DNA of 55,188 nt, from contig CALRGE010000009.1 of the NCBI GenBank assembly GCA_943357175.1, positions 1 through 55,188 of the forward strand, in the 5' to 3' direction. The position numbers were made by a program, and so were the translations under genes. Position 1 is the stretch's first letter; each line of letters starts with the position of its first letter. Origin of the DNA: Candidatus Peribacteria bacterium. Lineage in GTDB: Bacteria > Patescibacteriota > Gracilibacteria > UBA1369 > 2-02-FULL-48-14. The notes below the pieces were generated by a model that did no database searches, was not told where the DNA came from, and saw only the letters and a program-made list of their open reading frames with translations. Shown here piece after piece: positions 17,326-30,658 of the stretch.

Positions 17326-18623
17326 AGATGAGAAAAGAAAAAGACGCATTAGGAGAAGTTGAAGTACCTGCTGAATGTTATGGAGGAAGTTTTTACACGC
17401 GCGCCAAGGCAAATTTTCAGATTTCCGGTTTGCAAGCATACTGGAGTTTTGCAGAGGCAATTTGTAATATAAAAATGGCAGCAGCAAGAATAAATCCGAT
17501 TGAGAAAAAAATCCGCGATGCAATTTTGAAGGCCGGTGAGGAATTTTTAGCTGGAAAATTTGATTTTGATTTAGATGCTTATCAGGCCGGAGCTGGTACA
17601 CCGTTTAACATGCACCTAAATGAGATTTTGGCCAATAGAGCAGCTGAAATTTTGGATGGAAAGAAAGGTGAATATAAGTTTGTGCATCCGAATGATCATG
17701 TGAATATGTCTCAATCATCGAATGATGTAATTCCAACTGCAATAAGATTAGCTGCAATAAATGATTTGGCCAAATTAAGCCAAGCTTTAAAAAATCTAAT
17801 TAAGAGTTTTGAGAAAAAAGAGAAAGCTCTCATGAAAGTAATGAAATGCGGAAGAACCCATTTGCAAGATGCTGTTCCAATTTCACTAGGTCAAGAATTT
17901 GGAGGATACAAAGAAGCACTGATTTCTTGTGAGAAACAAATTCAGAATGCTAGAGAAGATTTACTTGAATTAGGAATTGGTGGAACAGCAATTGGGTCCG
18001 GAATAAATACGCCGAAAGACTTTTCAAAAAAAATGTGCTCAGAACTTTCAAAAGTTTACGCTGTGAAATTACGCCCTGCTAAGAATCTTTTTCAGAAAAC
18101 AAATAGTATGAATTCGTTTTTACATTTGTCATCTACAATGCGCTCATTAGCAGTTGAACTTTTGCGAATTTCGAATGACCTTCGCATGATGGCGAGTGGA
18201 CCTGTTGCAGGATTTAATGAGTTGATTTTACCTGAAGTGGAACCTGGATCATCAATCATGCCGGGTAAAGTAAACCCTTCGATCCCTGAATGTATGAGCA
18301 TGATTTGCATTCAAGTTATTGGCTTAGATCTAAGTATTTCCCTTGCCTGCCAGCAAGGTCAATTTGAACTGAATTGGCACACTCCACTTATTATGACAGA
18401 TCTTTTGCATCAAATTGAAATACTTGGGAATGGGATGAAAATGTTCGGAGAACTTTGTATTGATGGAATAAAGGCAAATGAAAAAGAGATGTTTAAAAAG
18501 CTCAATGCTTCAACTTGTTTTGCTACTGCTTACGCTCCAAAAATTGGATATAAAGAAGTCGCAAGAATTGTTAAGGAATCACTTGAAAAAGGTATTCCTT
18601 TCAATGAAGTTTTTAAGGCTTAG
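17322..18623 (+). CDS. Aspartase/fumarase superfamily lyase (aspartate ammonia-lyase-like)
   Basis: Tetrameric lyase family that adds to or eliminates from fumarate. The signature GSSIMPGKVNPSIPE occurs near residue 307, with the catalytic Ser in the GSS loop, and the other conserved segments are present (MSQSSNDVIPTA near 127, KCGRTHLQDAVPISLGQEF near 176). N-terminal wording (LGEVEVPAECYGGSFYTRA) and PSIPE favour aspartase over fumarase, but the two cannot be separated safely. At 433 aa it lacks about 30 residues of the usual C-terminus. It is the last gene of the plus-strand run and converges on the PKD operon with an 11-nt overlap. Confidence 0.88.
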   Translation: MKMRKEKDALGEVEVPAECYGGSFYTRAKANFQISGLQAYWSFAEAICNIKMAAARINPIEKKIRDAILKAGEEFLAGKFDFDLDAYQAGAGTPFNMHLNEILANRAAEILDGKKGEYKFVHPNDHVNMSQSSNDVIPTAIRLAAINDLAKLSQALKNLIKSFEKKEKALMKVMKCGRTHLQDAVPISLGQEFGGYKEALISCEKQIQNAREDLLELGIGGTAIGSGINTPKDFSKKMCSELSKVYAVKLRPAKNLFQKTNSMNSFLHLSSTMRSLAVELLRISNDLRMMASGPVAGFNELILPEVEPGSSIMPGKVNPSIPECMSMICIQVIGLDLSISLACQQGQFELNWHTPLIMTDLLHQIEILGNGMKMFGELCIDGIKANEKEMFKKLNASTCFATAYAPKIGYKEVARIVKESLEKGIPFNEVFKA

Positions 18624-20748
18624 TAACTGTTATTACTTTTGTTATTGAAGAGATTACTTTGTTGTCTCCGGTTACTTCAAGTAAAAGTTCATAAGTGCCT
18701 GCAGTTTGGTATAAATGACCATCAGGCGATTTTCCCTTATCTATAGAGCCGTCACCAAAATCCCAAGCATAATCAGTGATTGAACCTTTTGAACAACTAG
18801 GATTTGGTGTTACATAAAAAGGTGCAGCACCCGAATCTGAATCAACAGTGAAACATGCAGTTAAAGAAACTGGTCGAACAATAATTTGAGTTGTTGTTGA
18901 GGAGGTTTTTCCATCTGCGCCAACAACCGTTAATGTTGCAGTAAAATTTCCTGTTGTTGTGTATCTATATTCAGCTGAAGAGCCGCCATTTGCAGGAATT
19001 CCACCTTCACCAAAATCAATTTTGTAATCTGCAATTGTACCATCTTTATATGTAGATGCTGAGGCGTCAAAACTTACACGCAAAGGAACTTCACCTGAAG
19101 TCGGTGTAACAGTCCATTTTGCAACTATTCCTTGTGGAGTTACATTAATATCAACTGTAGTTTCTGAGGTATTTTTTGCAGAGTCAGTAAGTATCAATCG
19201 AGCAGTATACTCTCCTTCTTCTTCATAAGTATGAGAAGCATTACTTCCAGTATCATCAACTTCACCATCATCATCAAAATCCCATTGATATGATATGATA
19301 TCTTTTTCCTGATCTGTTGAAGTGCTCGCGCTAAAATCAATTGCAAGTGGAAGTGGACCAGTAATAGTTCCGTTCAAAGCAGCCGGTTCACTTGAAATTT
19401 TTGCATCAGGTGGAGTGCCTTTATCAACAACAGTAATATCTAAAGTTTGATTATCTGTATTTGAACTCTTATCCATGATTGTTAGCTTCAAAGTTAATTT
19501 TCCAGATTTTGAAAATGTGTGATTCACAGTTTTACCTGTAGATTTTGTTGAACCGTCACCGAAATCCCAAGTATAAGCTGTAATGCTACCATCTTTAATC
19601 TGTGATGATTCACCAGAGAAAGTATATTTTTCACCTGTATAATAAATTTCATCAATTCCAACATCAGAATTCACAATTGCTCTTAAGCCGTTTACTGTAC
19701 CGGCTTCAATTTCTTGAGTTGAAATATCTGAAGCACCATTGTTATCTGTCACTTTAAGAGAGACCTTATATGTGCCTTCATTCTCATAATCAAATTCAGC
19801 TGTAACTTCTGTTGCATCATCAAAGTCACCATCACCATCTAAATCCCATTCGTAAGTTTTAATTTCACCATCAGGGTCATATGATGCTGATGCATCAAAT
19901 TTAACCTTTAATGGGATTTCTCCACTATCAGGTTTCATGATAAATGAAGCTGAAGTTGATTCATTAGTAATTACAATTTCTTTAGAGAATTCTTGAGTAA
20001 ATTGTTTCTTAGTAGCAAGCTCTTCAAGCCCAACACTTAGTTTAACTGTATATTTACCATCTGCTGTGCTCTTTTTTGTGTATCTGTGACTTGTTACACT
20101 ACCATTCGCAGTTCCACCATCACCAAAATTCCAAGTGTAAGATAAAATTGCAATACTTGTCTCATCAATTGGCAACTTACTAGCATCAAAATTAATTTCA
20201 ATTGGAGCTGTTAGACCGATTGTATCTGAAGGCGTGGTTACAATTCCTCCGCTAACTTCTGTAACCAGTTTTGGTCCGAGTAAAATTATTGAAACAAGCC
20301 AAATTGCTGCAAATAAAAGGAATGCAATCCCTGACATCATTGCCTTTTTAGAGGACTGCTTCTTTTTTTCAAGCTCCTGAGCATTTGTCATCAGTGATTT
20401 AAAGAGGAAAAATAATGCCGCAAGCAAAGTCACAGCCACCAAAATACCGAATTGTATATGAAGGAGATTCATCACCATCCCATCAAAATCTCTTTGTTTC
20501 ATTCCGCCAATATATTTGAAGAAGCTTAAATCTTGACCACCTGCTAAAAACGCCCAAGCATAAACAAATGCAATTGAAGCAAAGTAAGCTAAGCCAGCTA
20601 AAATTCCCATTCTCTTAAACATTTCTGATCGTTTTACTTTTTTCTCTTCAGGAGTTAGAACTTTTGCTGGAACAGGCACTGGAGGAATTGGTGCTGGAGC
20701 TGGAGCAGGTGTAGGAGTAGGTGCTGGTGTACTAGCTGTTTCAGTCAT
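18613..20748 (-). CDS. Membrane-anchored protein with six PKD domains
   Basis: Residues 1-30 are a Pro/Ala/Thr repeat (PAPTPTPAPAPAP). Three hydrophobic helices follow (ILAGLAYFASIAFVYAWAFL; FGILVAVTLLAALFFLF; GIAFLLFAAIWLVSIILL), then about 530 residues of PKD-type beta domains. The hallmark Y-x-W-[DN]-FGDG or its variants appears six times (YTWNFGDGG, YEWDLDGDGD, YTWDFGDGS, YQWDFDDDG, YKIDFGEGG, YAWDFGDGS). PKD domains form extracellular rods used in adhesion or as spacers. The start codon abuts the stop of the 1647-aa gene (TAAATG), so the two are cotranslated. This is the last gene of the operon. Confidence 0.88.
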   Translation of the reverse strand: MTETASTPAPTPTPAPAPAPIPPVPVPAKVLTPEEKKVKRSEMFKRMGILAGLAYFASIAFVYAWAFLAGGQDLSFFKYIGGMKQRDFDGMVMNLLHIQFGILVAVTLLAALFFLFKSLMTNAQELEKKKQSSKKAMMSGIAFLLFAAIWLVSIILLGPKLVTEVSGGIVTTPSDTIGLTAPIEINFDASKLPIDETSIAILSYTWNFGDGGTANGSVTSHRYTKKSTADGKYTVKLSVGLEELATKKQFTQEFSKEIVITNESTSASFIMKPDSGEIPLKVKFDASASYDPDGEIKTYEWDLDGDGDFDDATEVTAEFDYENEGTYKVSLKVTDNNGASDISTQEIEAGTVNGLRAIVNSDVGIDEIYYTGEKYTFSGESSQIKDGSITAYTWDFGDGSTKSTGKTVNHTFSKSGKLTLKLTIMDKSSNTDNQTLDITVVDKGTPPDAKISSEPAALNGTITGPLPLAIDFSASTSTDQEKDIISYQWDFDDDGEVDDTGSNASHTYEEEGEYTARLILTDSAKNTSETTVDINVTPQGIVAKWTVTPTSGEVPLRVSFDASASTYKDGTIADYKIDFGEGGIPANGGSSAEYRYTTTGNFTATLTVVGADGKTSSTTTQIIVRPVSLTACFTVDSDSGAAPFYVTPNPSCSKGSITDYAWDFGDGSIDKGKSPDGHLYQTAGTYELLLEVTGDNKVISSITKVITVTKP

Positions 20749-23700
20749 TTAACTTTGTGGTTTGGAAGTATAAGCAAGGGCGGTACCGGCAATTGCTGCC
20801 ATAAACGCGCCTAAAATAAATAGATATAATTCTGAATTCGTGGCGTTGAAAAGATTAGCACCTCCGGTTGATCCTTGGAAAGTGATCTGGATTGTGTCAT
20901 AAGCCGACTCACCGGTTTCATTATCTGTAACACTTAACTTTACGACGGTTTGTCCATATGATTTGTCAAAATATGTTTCCCATGAACCTGATTTTGACTG
21001 AGCATCGTCTATATCATTAGCACGTTCACCATCGCCACTTGTGTCGTAAAAAATATTCTTATCAATTTGATATGAGAAATCACCACTACCACCTGTCGCA
21101 CTGAAATAGAAAGTTACATATCCATTTTCTCCAGTCATTGTGACCTTTTTTGAAACGGCCGCTGGTAGACTTGTAAATGAAATAACAATAGGTTCAATCG
21201 GTGCCACTAGTGAAACTGTATTTTCCGCTGAACTTTCCTTCTTATATGTATCAGTAATAGTTAATTTTGCCTCATATATTCCGTATGCATCATATGTGTG
21301 GCTCGGATTTTTTGTTGTGGCATCAGAATCATTATCAGGAACTGTGTCACCATCACTATCTTTTGAAGTATCAAAATCCCATTTATAAGATTTCACTGTA
21401 ATATCATTTGCAGTATCAGTTGTGGAACTATCTGTAAAAGTTACAAGTTTATCACTCACAACAGAGCTAAATCCAGCTTTTGGATCAACAGTTTGAATCA
21501 CTTTAACAGCATTTGTAACGGTGTCAGTTTGACCTGTGTTATCAACAATTGTCATTTTCACATTATAAGTTCCCAAAGTTTCATATGTGTGGCTTGGACT
21601 TTCTTTATCTTTATCCTCAACATCATTATCTTTCACTCCATCGCCGTTAACATCAACACTTGTATCAAAATCCCAGTAAATTCCGGAAAAAGCTGCTCCA
21701 TTATCAGAATCAAAAACTGTATTATCAGAGAATTTTACTGTTTTCCCAGTAATTTCAGTTAAGAATGCCGCCTCCGGAGGAGCTGAGTTTGAAGTAACAT
21801 AAATTTTGATTGAATCTGAAACAGCAGTTGCCCCTGCATCATCTTCAACTTTTAATTTCACATCAATTCCCAATGGGTGTGATTCTGTAAATATATAAGT
21901 AAGCTTAGGTTCTTCTTCAGATTCATTATCACTGAATCCGTCACCCTCAAGATCCCATGTATAAGCAATAATTGTTCCATCTGAATCTTTTGAAGTTGAG
22001 GTGAAATTAATTTCATCACCCACAAATACAGAAGTTTGATCAACACCGAAGCCAACAGTCGGGCTTGCATTCGGACCATTTTTCACAGTGATAGTAGGAA
22101 TCTTAGATTCAGCTAGTGATTCAGCGGTTGAAACTTTGTTATTTTGATTATCATAAACCTCAGCGGCGAATCCATAAGTGATTTCTTCATCTTCTAAACC
22201 ATTTGTGTTCACTTTTAAACTAAAACTTGTCGTAGCAAAAGATGCCTCGCCCAAAGCAACTGAAGAATTATTTACATCATAATACCAACCGTTAACCTTA
22301 ACTATTTTTCCATCCACATCAGATGCATCAACGTTAATGTTAACCGTTAAAGGTGTGATTAAGGATGATGAAACCGGCACTGCAGTAATTCCTGAAATTT
22401 CAGGTGCAACATCTTCAATTGTCACCTTAATATTTGATTGGCTTGAAAGTGTTGGATCTTTTGAATCTTTCACTGTAAGTACAACATCAAAGTCACCAGT
22501 TTCATCAAAAATATGACTGACTTTGCTTGAACTTGAGGTCGTTTGATCATCGAAGTTCCAACTGTAACTTAGATTTTTTGAGCTTCCGTCTGTGTTGATT
22601 GAAGAAGTCGCATCAAATTCAAACTTTGTTTTTATGTTTCCACTTATGGAATCACCAAAACCTGTATCATTTCCATCAGCAGTTACATTCATAACAGCAA
22701 TAGGGCTATCACCTGTACCCACATAAATTCTTCTAGTTATTGAGTTCGTGCTGTTATCATCAGCTAATGCAGTAAGCTTAACATTGAAAACTCCGGCCTG
22801 CTTATATGTATGTTTGAAGGTCTCTTTTCCGGAACTAAAAGTTGTTGATAAATCACTTTCTCCATCACCATAATCAATATCAACTTCTGATGCATTTTCA
22901 CTAGTTGCAGTCATTTCTGCCTCCACTTCCGCCGATTCACCAAGTTTATAAGTACCATCGCCAACATCCAAATCAACATCTAGAACAGAACTAACATCAA
23001 TCGTTACTTCTGCAACAGAAGTTTTTTGCAGCTCAGATTCATGATTATCTGAAACTGAAAGTGAAATATCTCTTTCTCCTGTTGTAAGGAAATTTATTGT
23101 TATTGCTGAACCATCGGTTTCTTGGCTCTCAACTGACCAATCTTCGCCTTCTTCACCTCCGATTGCCCAAGCATAAGTGAGTGTATCTTTTTCATCAGGA
23201 TCGTAAGATTTTGACCCATCAAAAATATATGTACCCGGTTTAGTGCTATTCGGCACTGAGTAATCAAATTTTGCTACCGGACTTTGCGATTCAACAAGTA
23301 CATCAATCGAATCAGTGTCTGTTCCACTAACTCCATCTGTTACAGTTAAAGACATTGTGTAAATTCCTGGCTGGTCAAACTCAGTATTAATTTCAATTCC
23401 GTTGTCGTTTTCTAAAGCATATGGAGTACCGTCTAAGGTTGCTGCCCATTTATAATTTGAAATTGTACCTAAATTTGCGCTTGATGCCGCACCACTGAAT
23501 TCAAATTTTGTTCCAACCATTCCTGATTCTGGTGAAACTGAAATTCTTGCCGCTGGAGAACCAACATAAATTTTTGTATATTTTCTATCTTTCAAGCCTG
23601 TTGCATCAGTAACAGTTAATGACATTGTGTAAGTTCCTTCTTCACCATACATATGTAGATCTGGCGTAACTTCAGTCGGACCTTCAACAATTTCACCGTC

Positions 23701-25692
23701 ACCAAAATCCCAACTATAAAAAGATAATTCATCATCTTCTCCACCCCCACCTGTTGAACCTTCAGCACTAAATTGAATACCTGCCTTGGCTTCATTTAGA
23801 ATCACTTTATATGTGGATTTATCTATTGCAGGGAAAACAGAGAAATCAGCTAATTCAGTTGACTCGCCCCCTGCTGTTGCCTGAAGTTTAATAATTGAAG
23901 AGCGTGGAGAAACTTTAATTGTTACGTATGCAATACCGGCTGCTATGTCATAATCTGGATCAGAGCTTGAAGCTTTCATTTTCACTCTATAAGTTCCGGC
24001 GTTTTCAAATTTATGGCTTGTTGCCGGGCCAGTTGAAGTATTTGGACTGTCTGAACTGGCATTTAAATCACCAAAATCCCAAGAAATATTCTCATCATCA
24101 ACAGTTCCCATCTTTGGATCAAGAGTTCCAAGTGAATCAAATCTAACTATAAGAGGAGCATTGCCTGTAGTTACACTTGCAGCGATTCGTGCATCAACGA
24201 ATTGAACATTTTGAACGAGTTTATAGATTTTATCGATACTTTTTATAAAACTTGAAACTGAAACTGCAGAAATATTATCAACATCTTCAGCATCTGTAAT
24301 TTGAGTATTTAGAGTAGTGAATGCATCATTAATAGTCTGAAGTGTTGATGTTGCTGCATCTCCATCATCAAAAAGCTCATTTAGATCAGATAATCGCTCA
24401 GCTAAATCTTCAACAGTTCTTGTATAATCTTCTGCAGCATTCTCACCAATATCAGCTACTCTATCTTTAATGGTTCCATCAATTTCTGATACATCTATCT
24501 CAAAAAAAGTTAGCCCAGATGAACCTGGATCTACATTCCAATTGTCTGATATATTTTCATCTCCAGAGTAGGCAACACTATAATAACAGTCACCAGTACC
24601 TGCATTTGCCGTTTCATTTGCCTCTTCATCTGAGATCATGTCCTCTGTAACATCAAACTGACCCTCAAGTACGGTTTCTGCATGTGCCGTTTTAACAAAA
24701 TGCATATCAGGCAAAACTAATGATGTAGTTGAACCGGATTTTAAATAATTTTTAAGTGCCTGAGAAGATTCATAAGTACAACTCACTGACGTATCAACAG
24801 TGCCTTGAATTTTCACTATGCCTGCATTTAATTTATCTAAATAAGAATCTATTTCTGATTGATCGACATAAGAATATATATCTGAATAATCAGTGTCAGC
24901 TCCAGTAATAAACTCACCAATAAATTCAAGTGCGCCACCTACAGATATGTCAGTATCAGTCACCTCTACTTGCACTGGTGCGTTAATTGAGCCCATGTAT
25001 GCCACTTCTTCAACAACTTTATTATAAGTTTTATAAGCATCAAGATATTCAGATGTAATATTCGTTAATTCCTCAAGCACTGAAGTTACATCAAAAGCCG
25101 CCCCGGACTCTGCAATTGTTGTACCTGTAGTTCCGTCACCAGAAGTATCGGCACCTGTCGCACTTAATAGAGTGTTAACAATTGCAAATGAACTTAAAAT
25201 TATGACAATACCGACAACTGCATATGAAATTGCTTTTTTACCCTCTCCTGCTTGAGTTTCATCACCACGGCTGGTGACATAAAGTACTCCTCCGTAAATT
25301 ACAACAACTGTGGAAATTAAACCTAAAAAGGAAAGTGCAAAATTGACTATTGTTTGAATTAGTTCTCTACCCGAAGTAACTTTTGTTAGAGCCGGATCGT
25401 ATGCGGCTGCGTCAGGAGCCTCCATTGTGCCATCGAATCCTGAAAAACCGTCGATCGATGCACTTGAGCTTGAACAACCTGATGCTGCAGCAAGACTCTC
25501 AGATAGATTTGCACAATCAGCTGCAGATATGTCACCCTGAGCTTCATCTGAACTTGTTGTTTCCGAGTCATAACTAATATCTAAATCAGCAAAAGCCACC
25601 GGTAATATAAAAGACTGCATTGCGAGAACAATGCTTAAAAGTGATATTTTTGCGACTCGTTTTAAATTCATGGTGTGGAATTTGTCTTTCAT
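20749..25692 (-). CDS. Giant surface protein: VirB2-like membrane module plus PKD-repeat stalk
   Basis: The 1647-aa product starts with a signal peptide (SLLSIVLAMQSFILPVAFA, cut near 35). At about 108-180 it has a two-helix module of VirB2/TrbC type: helix, YGGVLYVTSRGDE, KKAISYAVVG, helix. A helical linker follows, then about ten PKD-like domains marked by ISWDFGD, YSWDFGDGE, YKWAATLDG, YAWAIGGEE, IDYGDGES, YSWNFDDQ, YTWDLEGDG, YWDFDTSVDVNGDG and YKWDFDTSKDSDGD. Asp-rich DxDxDG loops suggest calcium binding. A final hydrophobic segment (LYLFILGAFMAAIAGTALAY) lies at the C-terminus, so both ends may sit in the membrane. The role is unknown; a stalk attached to a pilin-like base is my inference. 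Confidence 0.88.
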   Translation of the reverse strand: MKDKFHTMNLKRVAKISLLSIVLAMQSFILPVAFADLDISYDSETTSSDEAQGDISAADCANLSESLAAASGCSSSSASIDGFSGFDGTMEAPDAAAYDPALTKVTSGRELIQTIVNFALSFLGLISTVVVIYGGVLYVTSRGDETQAGEGKKAISYAVVGIVIILSSFAIVNTLLSATGADTSGDGTTGTTIAESGAAFDVTSVLEELTNITSEYLDAYKTYNKVVEEVAYMGSINAPVQVEVTDTDISVGGALEFIGEFITGADTDYSDIYSYVDQSEIDSYLDKLNAGIVKIQGTVDTSVSCTYESSQALKNYLKSGSTTSLVLPDMHFVKTAHAETVLEGQFDVTEDMISDEEANETANAGTGDCYYSVAYSGDENISDNWNVDPGSSGLTFFEIDVSEIDGTIKDRVADIGENAAEDYTRTVEDLAERLSDLNELFDDGDAATSTLQTINDAFTTLNTQITDAEDVDNISAVSVSSFIKSIDKIYKLVQNVQFVDARIAASVTTGNAPLIVRFDSLGTLDPKMGTVDDENISWDFGDLNASSDSPNTSTGPATSHKFENAGTYRVKMKASSSDPDYDIAAGIAYVTIKVSPRSSIIKLQATAGGESTELADFSVFPAIDKSTYKVILNEAKAGIQFSAEGSTGGGGEDDELSFYSWDFGDGEIVEGPTEVTPDLHMYGEEGTYTMSLTVTDATGLKDRKYTKIYVGSPAARISVSPESGMVGTKFEFSGAASSANLGTISNYKWAATLDGTPYALENDNGIEINTEFDQPGIYTMSLTVTDGVSGTDTDSIDVLVESQSPVAKFDYSVPNSTKPGTYIFDGSKSYDPDEKDTLTYAWAIGGEEGEDWSVESQETDGSAITINFLTTGERDISLSVSDNHESELQKTSVAEVTIDVSSVLDVDLDVGDGTYKLGESAEVEAEMTATSENASEVDIDYGDGESDLSTTFSSGKETFKHTYKQAGVFNVKLTALADDNSTNSITRRIYVGTGDSPIAVMNVTADGNDTGFGDSISGNIKTKFEFDATSSINTDGSSKNLSYSWNFDDQTTSSSSKVSHIFDETGDFDVVLTVKDSKDPTLSSQSNIKVTIEDVAPEISGITAVPVSSSLITPLTVNINVDASDVDGKIVKVNGWYYDVNNSSVALGEASFATTSFSLKVNTNGLEDEEITYGFAAEVYDNQNNKVSTAESLAESKIPTITVKNGPNASPTVGFGVDQTSVFVGDEINFTSTSKDSDGTIIAYTWDLEGDGFSDNESEEEPKLTYIFTESHPLGIDVKLKVEDDAGATAVSDSIKIYVTSNSAPPEAAFLTEITGKTVKFSDNTVFDSDNGAAFSGIYWDFDTSVDVNGDGVKDNDVEDKDKESPSHTYETLGTYNVKMTIVDNTGQTDTVTNAVKVIQTVDPKAGFSSVVSDKLVTFTDSSTTDTANDITVKSYKWDFDTSKDSDGDTVPDNDSDATTKNPSHTYDAYGIYEAKLTITDTYKKESSAENTVSLVAPIEPIVISFTSLPAAVSKKVTMTGENGYVTFYFSATGGSGDFSYQIDKNIFYDTSGDGERANDIDDAQSKSGSWETYFDKSYGQTVVKLSVTDNETGESAYDTIQITFQGSTGGANLFNATNSELYLFILGAFMAAIAGTALAYTSKPQS

Positions 25693-25703
25693 ATTCTATA
25701 TGT

Positions 25704-26699
25704 TTATCTGGCGGCATCAAGAGTAACAATTGTAGAAGTTATTGCGAAGGCTGAACCGGCAAGAATTAAACCGATTGCTGCACCTGTTATTATTTGTTTT
25801 GCCTTTGTGATATTTTCTTCTTTTCCTACTGAAGTAACATATAAGTAACCTGCGTAAAGCAAGAAAACAAAAGATAAGGTGCCGATTGTTCCCGAAACGA
25901 AATTTGTAATTTGTACAAAAAGGCTCTTGGCATTTGAAATTCCCAATGTTGTACCTTGATCTTTGAAAAGGATTCCCTGTGCCACAAACTCTGAAATTGC
26001 AACTACAAATAGACCGACAAGCGACCAGGTTATTTGACGTTTTGCAGTTGTAACCTCGTCGTCAATTGCTGAACCGGCAACGTATCTCATACCTGCAGTT
26101 ACAAGCATGAAAACCGCAATTGATCCCACTGTTACCTGCATTAAGCTATAAATACCCTTCATAAAACTTGAAGCCTGATTTCCGTATTCAGCCGCTCCAG
26201 ATACTCCATTTCTAAAAATATCTCCTTCAACTCCGAATGCAACACTTCTTATAAGTTCGTCAGCAATAAAAATTACAATCAAACCCTCAACTGCGTACCT
26301 TATATAGTTTTTAGATGCAGTTTCAACTTCACTGTTATCTCTACCAGCCGCAACCATTCGCACTCCCATGACAACAATAAAAAGTACCGCAATCGGAGTC
26401 ACAAGTAACTTAAAAAAATCTAAAAATGTAAAGATTGCACCTGTAATACCTTTTATACCGCCTTCCCCGTAAGCGTTACCATTTTCCGAATCATCTTGAT
26501 AAGTAGGCAAAGTAATTGATTGAACATCAGACTCTCCATCTGTTTGAGTTTCATTTATATCTTCGCTCACTTTTTCACTTTGAGTTCCAATATTTGTTCC
26601 AAGTCCTTTAATTGTATCCTGAAAAGATTCCGCGTAAGCAGGAGCCATGAAAGACATGTGAATCACGATAACGAAGATGTAAGCAATAAATTTTTTCAT
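25704..26699 (-). CDS. Membrane protein with three tandem VirB2/TrbC-like pilin modules
   Basis: After a signal peptide (MKKFIAYIFVIVIHMSFMAPAYA) the 331-aa protein repeats one unit three times: hydrophobic helix, short loop ending in a small/polar turn, basic-amphipathic stretch, second helix. The turns are VVMGVRMVAAGRDNSE, LVTAGMRYVAGSAIDDE and LLYAGYLYVTSVGKEEN, each followed by a Lys/Arg-containing start of helix two (ASKNYIRYAVEG, AKRQITWSLVG, AKQIITGAAIG). Single units of this kind are pilin subunits in type IV secretion systems. A triplicated protein could form a pore or a base rather than a filament. It is 3 nt after the upstream 302-aa gene. Confidence 0.85.
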   Translation of the reverse strand: MKKFIAYIFVIVIHMSFMAPAYAESFQDTIKGLGTNIGTQSEKVSEDINETQTDGESDVQSITLPTYQDDSENGNAYGEGGIKGITGAIFTFLDFFKLLVTPIAVLFIVVMGVRMVAAGRDNSEVETASKNYIRYAVEGLIVIFIADELIRSVAFGVEGDIFRNGVSGAAEYGNQASSFMKGIYSLMQVTVGSIAVFMLVTAGMRYVAGSAIDDEVTTAKRQITWSLVGLFVVAISEFVAQGILFKDQGTTLGISNAKSLFVQITNFVSGTIGTLSFVFLLYAGYLYVTSVGKEENITKAKQIITGAAIGLILAGSAFAITSTIVTLDAAR

Positions 26700-26702
26700 A
26701 TT

Positions 26703-27611
26703 TTAGAAGACACCAGCGATTACAGTTGAAACGAGCGCGAATGCGCCATAAATAATAACAATTCCGATGACGGAATTGATCATGATTTTTTTTGCCAAAT
26801 CAATTCTTCCCTGCTCTCCACCTGCAGTTGCATAAAGCAGACCACCTATAAGGAGTCCAAGTAGCATTATCGGCCCGACAAAAGAAACCATAATATTTAT
26901 TATTGAAACCATCTGTTTAAGAAATTCGCTCTGATTTATTGAGACAACAGTTTCAGATGTCGCACTGTTATATGCTGTTGAGTAAAGAATTTTTCTCACA
27001 AATAGATCAGATGCAAAAACCATAATTAAACCACCGGACGACATGACAAGATTCTTTTTCTCTCTTGTTATATCTTCATCACTTGAACTTGAAGAAATCA
27101 TAACAGCACCGGCACGAATAAACATGAGAGATGCAAGCGCTCCTAGTAAATATTTAATAAAAGTAATAACAATTTTCACCGTATCATCAAAAACAGCCGC
27201 TCTATTAACCAAAGATTCACCATCTTCAAGGGCGTTTCCACTCCTGTAATCAAAAACTTCAGCTAATGGGCCGGCAATACTTATAAGTGCGAGCCCGAGT
27301 AGCCCATAAGTTATTGACTGTTTTTGCGTTTTTACAGTTCCATCATTATCTCCACCCACAACCATTGTAAAACCTGAAATTACAATTAATAGAATTGAAA
27401 TTGCTCCAACAATAATTCTAGTTGCTCTTGCTAGAGGTCCGAGGACATTTTCGAATTTATCTACAGCTGTGTCTCCTTCTGCAGTCGGTAGTCCCAGGGT
27501 TGTGTTATCAGGCAAAGGAACGAAACCGGCAAATGCTGTAGGTATCATCAAAGATGCTAAAATACCTAAAACTACAGCTATAAGAATTCTTTTTTTTATG
27601 TTTTTGCGCAT
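26703..27611 (-). CDS. Membrane protein with three tandem VirB2/TrbC-like pilin modules (first gene of the operon)
   Basis: The 302-aa protein has a signal peptide (RILIAVVLGILASLMIPTAFA) and three two-helix modules. Their turns are ISGFTMVVGGDNDG, IRAGAVMISSSSSDED and IGGLLYATAGGEQG, followed by KQSITYGLLG, REKKNLVMSSGG and AKKIMINSVIG. The third module is closest to single-copy TrbC/VirB2 pilins. The organisation mirrors the next gene, so the two are paralogues that probably assemble together. A strong promoter lies directly upstream. No VirB4, VirD4 or other secretion ATPase is encoded in this window. Confidence 0.85.
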   Translation of the reverse strand: MRKNIKKRILIAVVLGILASLMIPTAFAGFVPLPDNTTLGLPTAEGDTAVDKFENVLGPLARATRIIVGAISILLIVISGFTMVVGGDNDGTVKTQKQSITYGLLGLALISIAGPLAEVFDYRSGNALEDGESLVNRAAVFDDTVKIVITFIKYLLGALASLMFIRAGAVMISSSSSDEDITREKKNLVMSSGGLIMVFASDLFVRKILYSTAYNSATSETVVSINQSEFLKQMVSIINIMVSFVGPIMLLGLLIGGLLYATAGGEQGRIDLAKKIMINSVIGIVIIYGAFALVSTVIAGVF

Positions 27612-27633: not shown

Positions 27634-27662
27634 ATTATATCACATTTGCTTGATTTATTCAA
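27634..27662 (-). promoter_or_regulatory. Promoter of the pilin-module/PKD operon
   Basis: Minus strand TTGAAT (27662-27657), 17-bp spacer, perfect TATAAT (27639-27634). Transcription should start near 27627, giving a leader of about 15 nt. It interleaves with the divergent secE promoter. Confidence 0.75.
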
Positions 27663-28505: not shown

Positions 28506-29114
28506 ATGCAAAAATTTACTGTATTCTCCATTATCTTATCCTTATGTGTGATATTCATACTTGGTGATATGGTTTTTCATGGCTACTTAAATACGAGTGT
28601 ACTTAGCGTGCCGGCCGAAAGTGGAACAGGTGCGGAAATTGAACCTGCGGTTGAGAATGTTGTTGTTCACGAAGATGAAGTTCCTGTCGCTAAATTAACA
28701 GCCGCTCACTTAACTGCGGCGGGCTTTTCTAATCCTGTTCTGAAAAATGCTGTTTTCGACGGGAATGTGTACAGTTTCTTAACTTTTTCAGATCAAAGTG
28801 ATGCTTATGTTTATCAATGGAACTTTTTTGATGGCGAAACATTTGTTGGCTCAGTTTATGAAATTGAGTATAGGAGTGAAACCGGCGGCTTTCAGGGTTA
28901 CCTAACCTTGCGTGACCGTGCTGCGAAGCTTTTGACTCTTGGAGATACGAACGAGTCGAACACATACGGCGATGCTTCGTTTTACTTTAACCACAAATCA
29001 AAGAAAAACACCGTTCACCTTGTTATCCGAAAAGGTGGCAGTATATATGCATTCCAATACTCGTATTCCCTACACGAAAAAATGAAGAGTTTGTTTGAGA
29101 TTATTTCGAAGTAG
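28506..29114 (+). CDS. Hypothetical membrane-anchored or secreted protein
   Basis: The 202-aa product begins with a hydrophobic anchor or signal (TVFSIILSLCVIFILGDMVF). The rest is a beta-rich extracytoplasmic domain with repeated aromatic patterns (VYSFLTFSDQSDAYVYQWNF, GSVYEIEYRSETGGFQGYL). I do not recognise a family. It lies 25 nt after nusG on the same strand and may share its transcript. Confidence 0.7.
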   Translation: MQKFTVFSIILSLCVIFILGDMVFHGYLNTSVLSVPAESGTGAEIEPAVENVVVHEDEVPVAKLTAAHLTAAGFSNPVLKNAVFDGNVYSFLTFSDQSDAYVYQWNFFDGETFVGSVYEIEYRSETGGFQGYLTLRDRAAKLLTLGDTNESNTYGDASFYFNHKSKKNTVHLVIRKGGSIYAFQYSYSLHEKMKSLFEIISK

Positions 29115-29890: not shown

Positions 29891-30658
29891 TTATTTACTA
29901 AACCGTTTCTCCCTCACCCTCAAGTTAATCGCATGTGCAATCTCGTGATGTTCTTTGCAGAGCGGCGCGAGATAGTTTGGATTATGTGAATGAGATATGG
30001 CGAAAGTTTGAGTGTGATGAATTACTTCGGAGGGCTTTTTACAGGTTGGAATTGAACATTTGGTGCCGTGTTCTTTTGTGAGAAGTCTTTCTGTTTTTGC
30101 TGGAACAGGTCGAGATGTTGCTAGTTCAACCGGTTGTGCTTTCTCTTCTGCAATTTCTTCTTCACGTTTGTTAAGTGCGGCGCTGATTAGTTCATTAATA
30201 TCTATCCCTTTAGATTGAAGTTCAATTAGTCGATTTTTGACTTCTTCGTTTAAGGTTAGTGTCTGCCTGGGCAGATCTGTAAACTTTTCATCTCTTACAA
30301 ATGTTTCTACTGCTGATTTGGACATGTTTTTTACAATTTCAGAAAGTTCTGCTTCATTCTCCGGAGTCGCAATTGAAACTACTCGAGCTAACTTATTAAT
30401 ACTTACTTCTCCATTAACAAGTGCCTCGTGCAATCTTGGCATACTTTCGAATCGTTCCTCCAAATTAAGTGCTAAACGAACTTGATCATTAGATAATCCT
30501 CCGAACTTTGCCGCAAACTCGAAGATTGAGCTACAGTTTTTCTTCTCGTACAACTTACGTTTGTGAATCTCGGGCAACAAACCTGTGAACTTCCTCTTCC
30601 ATTCAAGAGCGTTTTTACCGAAATAAATCGCTACTGATAACAAATCTTTATCGTTCAT
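29891..30658 (-). CDS. HNH endonuclease domain protein
   Basis: The C-terminal 70 residues form an HNH nuclease: CSIPTCKKPSEVIHHTQTFA, then NPNYLAPLCKEHHEIAHA, with two Cys pairs for structural zinc and the catalytic His in IHH. The N-terminal part (about 1-165) is helical and resembles the helical domain often found before HNH in DUF222-type proteins. No intein, group I intron or methylase is adjacent, so it is not obviously a homing or restriction enzyme. 255 aa, monocistronic. Confidence 0.85.
   Translation of the reverse strand: MNDKDLLSVAIYFGKNALEWKRKFTGLLPEIHKRKLYEKKNCSSIFEFAAKFGGLSNDQVRLALNLEERFESMPRLHEALVNGEVSINKLARVVSIATPENEAELSEIVKNMSKSAVETFVRDEKFTDLPRQTLTLNEEVKNRLIELQSKGIDINELISAALNKREEEIAEEKAQPVELATSRPVPAKTERLLTKEHGTKCSIPTCKKPSEVIHHTQTFAISHSHNPNYLAPLCKEHHEIAHAINLRVREKRFSK

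Follow-up and report, generated by a model that had tools for sequence, protein, structure and literature searches.

A four-gene operon in an ultra-small uncultured bacterium of Candidatus Peribacteria (Candidate Phyla Radiation, CPR) couples fused pilin modules of the VirB2 type to rods of PKD domains. The families of its components are known; the fused, PKD-coupled and class-wide build is new. The operon probably serves for touching or holding partner cells, a role suggested by the lifestyle of CPR bacteria. More specifically, its products may form a membrane-anchored surface complex, in which a base of VirB2-type hairpins drawn from all four products carries outward PKD rods that contact a partner cell, an interpretation to which we give an even chance of being right. 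The ranks order and class are used below as in the genome collection searched; at NCBI, Candidatus Peribacteria is a class of Candidatus Peregrinibacteriota.

Organization of the operon

The window, i.e. the whole stretch of 55,188 nucleotides that was analysed, is contig C9 of a 1.23-Mb genome assembled in 20 contigs. It contains the following features, given with the evidence used to delimit them.

26703..27611, minus strand: gene 1 (302 aa), a signal-like helix and three pilin-type hairpin modules at about residues 60-120, 146-209 and 235-298 (ORF, Pfam, hydropathy, alignment with orthologues)
25704..26699, minus strand: gene 2 (331 aa), a signal-like helix and three pilin-type hairpin modules at about residues 90-153, 181-244 and 262-325 (ORF, Pfam, hydropathy, orthologues, structure model)
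20749..25692, minus strand: gene 3 (1647 aa), a signal-like helix, one ordinary pilin module (residues 113-176), nine PKD domains (residues about 498-1496) and a C-terminal helix at 1622-1640 (ORF, Pfam/HMM, hydropathy)
18613..20748, minus strand: gene 4 (711 aa), a Pro-rich tail at the N terminus that lacks a cleavable signal, then three helices, the last two similar to a pilin module, and exactly six PKD domains (ORF, Pfam, hydropathy, structure model)
27634..27662, minus strand: promoter-like site TTGAAT-17-TATAAT with an extended -10, 23-51 nt ahead of gene 1 (consensus match only)

In the ORF list, the gaps between genes 1 and 2, 2 and 3, and 3 and 4 are 3, 11, and 0 nt, respectively. These gaps, the gene order kept in relatives and the promoter-like site would fit a single transcript covering genes 1-4. 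A preliminary description of the region had reported four genes separated by 0 to 11 nt, and its coordinates were exactly reproduced by the minus-strand ORFs (27611-18613). Its general picture of tri-modular pilin-type membrane proteins sharing an operon with PKD stalk proteins is supported, whereas the membrane ring, the calcium-binding stalks and the use in host attachment or uptake that it proposed are conjectural. For the two adjacent genes 1 and 2, a signal peptide followed by a triple two-helix module had been proposed, and Pfam indeed places three T4SS_pilin matches in each; the number of modules thus holds, but their equality does not, module 3 being ordinary and modules 1 and 2 diverged. 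For gene 3, the single module and the C-terminal helix were borne out, while the estimate of about ten PKD domains becomes nine by Pfam. The three helices joined to six PKD domains described for gene 4 were recovered by hydropathy, Pfam, and structure modelling.

Conservation and genomic location

The operon is widely kept. A search with gene 2 gave matches in all 30 genomes of the order, weakly in one of them (G026). Among 28 loci of the order that were read, the set of four genes is complete in 17, with unchanged order and strand and a layout of three modules in gene 1, three in gene 2, one module with PKD domains in gene 3, and three helices followed by six PKD domains in gene 4. The other 11 are affected by contig-end cuts or a split frame, and none shows a contrary gene order; about 1 kb lies between genes 2 and 3 at one locus (L037). 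The four genes thus stay together in related genomes, as the preliminary description would predict, and the presence of the operon across these genomes rules out a single-genome oddity. In every sufficiently long locus, the operon is divergent from a group comprising nusG (with secE where found), a gene for a 202-aa protein, rplK and rplA. This fixed place beside secE-nusG-rplK-rplA indicates vertical inheritance.

Two further observations concern the flanks. The 202-aa protein between nusG and rplK (window 28506-29114, plus strand) is an exported or one-helix protein, present in all relatives with enough flank and matching nothing in Pfam or NCBIfam. A family of 255-312 aa proteins with an HNH-like C-terminal end has at least three copies in the genome (window 29891-30658, minus strand; L009:1154-1945; L010:7330-8268) and also adjoins the same locus in some relatives.

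Beyond the order, the gene 2 profile finds matches at E <= 1e-15 in 188 of 241 genomes of the class, with values of about 1e-16 to 1e-56 outside the order. Outside the class, in about 340 genomes, the best match (E 5e-26) covers the profile partially. Gene 4 is found at E <= 1e-50 in 98 of 154 class genomes, as a rule in one copy per genome, and is absent at 1e-40 from about 260 genomes sampled outside the class; in one family (f19) the match is confined to its C-terminal part. The arrangement of the parts varies among families. Family f20 has all of them together with one additional single-module pilin. In family f22 each of the two fused pilins is built of four modules (L056:12107-15635, L062:8177-11031), and the cluster also contains gene 4. 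Families f21 and f24 carry genes 1-2 at one site and a single pilin, a gene 3-like gene and gene 4 at another. These arrangements indicate that the system is composed of two robust pairs, genes 1-2 and the gene 3-like gene with gene 4, which are joined into a single operon in the order to which the window belongs. In another family (f28, L092:4337-15486), gene 4 was observed amid about eight one- or two-module pilin genes and a gene for an 8-PKD protein.

Two kinds of pilin modules

The module search matched the T4SS_pilin and TrbC/VirB2 families and no unrelated families in Pfam. T4SS_pilin (PF18895) is found three times in gene 1 (E 4e-18), three times in gene 2 (E 4.7e-22) and once in gene 3 (residues 109-175, E 4e-9), above the cut-off in all three genes. 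Gene 1 also matches TrbC/VirB2 (PF04956) at E 2.9e-7, which passes the Pfam cut-off. In gene 4, helices 2-3 and the basic loop between them align with the pilin module profile, Pfam by itself giving E 0.068. Hydropathy places signal-like N-terminal helices in genes 1-3 and the gene 4 helices at 49-67, 98-116 and 140-158; the module helices of genes 1 and 2 are visible as well, some of them under the threshold of a simple scan. A structure model of the 331-aa gene 2 protein alone consists of three helical hairpins (mean pLDDT 74.7, the hairpins mostly 80-93). Compared with the PDB, this model has no meaningful structural match (best Foldseek E 0.43; VIA Z below 10, as is usual for helical bundles), which is weak evidence either way. 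Orthologue alignments of gene 1 (A2) and gene 2 (A1) have no sequence relative in the PDB, and a PHROGs search gave no useful result.

The modules are of two kinds. The closest mutual similarity, 36-38% identity, is between module 3 of gene 1, module 3 of gene 2 and the single gene 3 module. The gene 3 module is 40% identical to the ordinary single-module pilins of its own genome, and gene 3 modules share 59% identity among themselves. Modules 1 and 2 of genes 1 and 2 make up a looser, diverged group, with 25-29% identity internally, from which the 'YGG.LYVT' and 'SFAIVNT' motifs of ordinary pilins are gone. An acidic residue (D/E) in helix 2 is found in 93% and 97% of gene 2 modules 1 and 2, respectively, and in 65% of gene 1 module 2. 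Three of these modules 1-2 also have a basic residue (K/R) close to the start of helix 1, at 96-97%. The charged residues may form salt bridges between adjacent hairpins.

A fixed and a variable PKD rod

Pfam identifies nine PKD_4 stretches in gene 3 (E 4e-68) and six in gene 4 (E 4e-83). The structure model of gene 4 shows three helices and six beta-sandwiches with a mean pLDDT of 84.9, its pTM of 0.33 meaning that the angles between domains are not fixed by the model. The PKD domains of gene 4 match solved PKD domains, among them ColG (2y72_A, Z 14.6, rmsd 1.2, 85 aligned). The calcium-bound PKD 4aqo is also among the fold matches, which says nothing on calcium binding by gene 4; motifs of the DxDxDG type are few, with 1-4 per gene 3 in the three copies checked.

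The two rods differ in how far they vary. The number of PKD domains is exactly six in each of the 38 complete copies of gene 4 that were read, which come from many families of the class. This count leans on a PKD model for whose training some of these proteins were used, and on copies chosen by the gene 4 profile. For gene 4 of the window, Pfam and the structure model give six independently. The gene 4 ectodomain measures 559 +/- 9 aa (range 535-580) in the same 38 copies, compared with 1 to 20 PKD domains and 1430 +/- 399 aa after the module in 28 copies of gene 3. The PKD domains of gene 4 are also position-specific: the same-numbered domain of the window was the best match for 111 of 114 domains in the order and for 70 of 102 in other orders. 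The last of them carries two invariant cysteines, C632 and C652. In gene 3, the first six PKD domains are position-specific too, and the distal ones are duplicated and shuffled. The PKD domains of gene 3 were considered as an ordered copy of the six of gene 4, which was rejected for want of a one-to-one correspondence. The C-terminal helix of gene 3 is missing from some lineages, so the membrane anchoring of this protein is uncertain. Overall, gene 4, a fixed rod with position-specific domains, has the look of a structural component of defined size, and gene 3, conserved at its root and variable at the far end, that of a component for contact. This contrast between the rods is what is chiefly added to the preliminary description.

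Relation to VirB4 and type IV secretion

Pilin homology, which includes TrbC/VirB2, raises the question of whether the operon encodes a true VirB2-type T4SS pilus built by an unlinked VirB4, with genes 1-2 as multi-module subunits, gene 3 as a PKD adhesin on the surface or tip of the filament, and gene 4 as its membrane-held base. In VirB2 pili both termini lie on the outside of the filament, which would leave room for linkers and C-terminal PKD domains. VirB4 was found in 16 of 20 operon-bearing genomes tested. The genome studied here has one of the CD1110 family on contig C12 (L081:9413-11872), between an SLH-S41 peptidase gene and gyrA; no further T4SS gene is evident beside it. VirB2-like arrays close to virB4 are common in Patescibacteria (PMC12102498).

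Several observations speak against such a pilus. No VirB4 homologue was found among the ORFs of about 60 loci carrying the operon or its parts, which also rules out that the operon is part of a linked T4SS locus. The operon is kept in G001 (marker completeness 100%) and G019 (99%), where neither profile nor protein search found VirB4, and in G027 (97%), where protein search did not find it. All three are draft assemblies, which can miss genes, so they speak against a strict need for VirB4 but do not prove that the operon works without it. On contig C1 of the genome studied here, a separate cluster contains ordinary single-module pilins and a VirD4-like ATPase. Extraction of gene 4 from the membrane would be hindered by its extra helix and cytoplasmic tail. 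A VirB4-built pilus is the main rival to the surface complex, though one that we consider rather unlikely. On the same contig C1, a single 826-aa frame (L009:12872-15352) covers both a VirD4/TraG-like ATPase and a T4SS pilin with a signal, either as a real fusion or through a missed gene boundary.

Proposed surface complex and remaining alternatives

In the membrane-anchored surface complex that we prefer, genes 1-4 would contribute 3 + 3 + 1 + 1 pilin hairpins to the base. Genes 1 and 2 would form the base itself, each supplying two diverged modules, most with charged helices, and one ordinary module. The pilin or pilin-like hairpin of genes 3 and 4 would be the root of an outward-pointing PKD rod: in gene 4 a six-PKD rod of fixed length, held in the membrane by the extra helix and a cytoplasmic Pro-rich tail, and in gene 3 a longer rod whose proximal PKD domains are conserved and whose distal ones vary. 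Across the envelope, the complex would make contact with, or adhere to, another cell, either host or prey. Pilin homology, constant gene order and place, the fixed versus variable rods, the absence of an adjacent VirB4 and the PKD fold count for this model; against it count the VirB4 of most operon-bearing genomes, the loss of the gene 3 C-terminal helix in some lineages, and that module fusion alone is no bar to filament assembly. The topology, the co-assembly of the four products, any ring shape or calcium binding, and the function are inferred rather than shown. A more far-reaching version, which we advance tentatively and regard as possible rather than probable, is a distinct class of host-contact organelle of the Peribacteria/Gracilibacteria branch of CPR, in which a static membrane base of fused, functionally diverged pilin modules would carry a fixed PKD rod acting as ruler or collar and a rod of variable reach, without the ancestral VirB4 machine.

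A purely structural role is improbable. The rods could act as an envelope tether that sets the distance from the membrane to the cell wall or S-layer, with no part in cell contact, as would suit the fixed length and single copy of gene 4 and the site beside housekeeping genes. The variable distal end of gene 3 is, however, unsuited to a pure spacer, and Pfam found no wall- or S-layer-binding domain in the four genes. Least probable is a channel or uptake device, with the fused modules as pore or ion-driven part and PKD rods guiding or capturing the substrate: the conserved D/E of helix 2 and K/R of helix 1 in modules 1-2 would suit it, but these charges may instead pair as salt bridges that hold the base together, the ORFs and Pfam matches of the operon include neither an ATPase nor a nuclease, and structure searches found no channel fold, helical bundles being hard to match.

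Comparison with known systems

Aureispira is a predator, and we know of no pilin hairpins in its grappling hook protein, GhpA. The GhpA structures (PDB 9flw, 9flp, 9fly) are the top structural match of the gene 4 rod (9flw_A, E 2e-19). Both are tandem PKD/Ig-like rods, with 14-16% identity, and GhpA is much larger; the analogy is a suggestive one of build only.

With conjugative VirB2/TrbC pilins (PF04956), the proteins of the operon share the module of helix, basic loop and helix. Those pilins are single-module, whereas genes 1-2 have three modules per protein in the order and four in family f22. Arrays of 2-11 VirB2-like genes are described in Patescibacteria (PMC12102498); a pilin array is essential in Ca. 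S. epibionticum (PMC10633639). According to excerpts of these papers, T4SS_pilin/VirB2 homologues, Sec-type signal helices, consecutive pilin genes, and CPR hosts are common to the arrays and the operon, which differs in its three (or four) fused modules, two of three diverged, in its pilin-rooted PKD rods and in having no virB4 close by. The excerpts mention neither fusions nor PKD partners. No description of the operon was found in open-licence full texts, searched without supplements, in agreement with the statement of the preliminary description that no system with this build was known, with the proviso that VirB2-like arrays in Patescibacteria had already been described. In related CPR lineages, large exported proteins have been proposed to serve attachment, namely giant surface proteins with PKD domains in Vampirococcus lugosii (PMC8080830) and, in Peribacteria, large extracellular proteins (PMC4736985), but no such pilin modules or operon are described there.

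By what means CPR bacteria recognize their partners and keep hold of them is still a question, for which a class-wide, single-copy set with a fixed location and clear parts offers concrete targets. The invariant six-PKD rod, the charged fused modules and the variable distal rod each predict a structure that can be tested, and the operon would illustrate how secretion-system pilins can be remade into something different.

Finally, the 'CPR pilus' of NCBIfam, whose PamR (NF058578) also belongs to a CPR surface system with a PKD/Ig-like domain, gives weak partial matches to genes 3 and 4. PamR is above the cut-off in none of 20 relatives, and true PamR proteins come from other classes, where their clusters have no T4SS pilin modules over about 10 kb per side. 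Identity with the Pam system is therefore ruled out. At the PamR loci read in other CPR classes (L105-L109), the gene lies among those for small exported one- or two-helix proteins, with ATP-synthase-like genes nearby at several of the loci.
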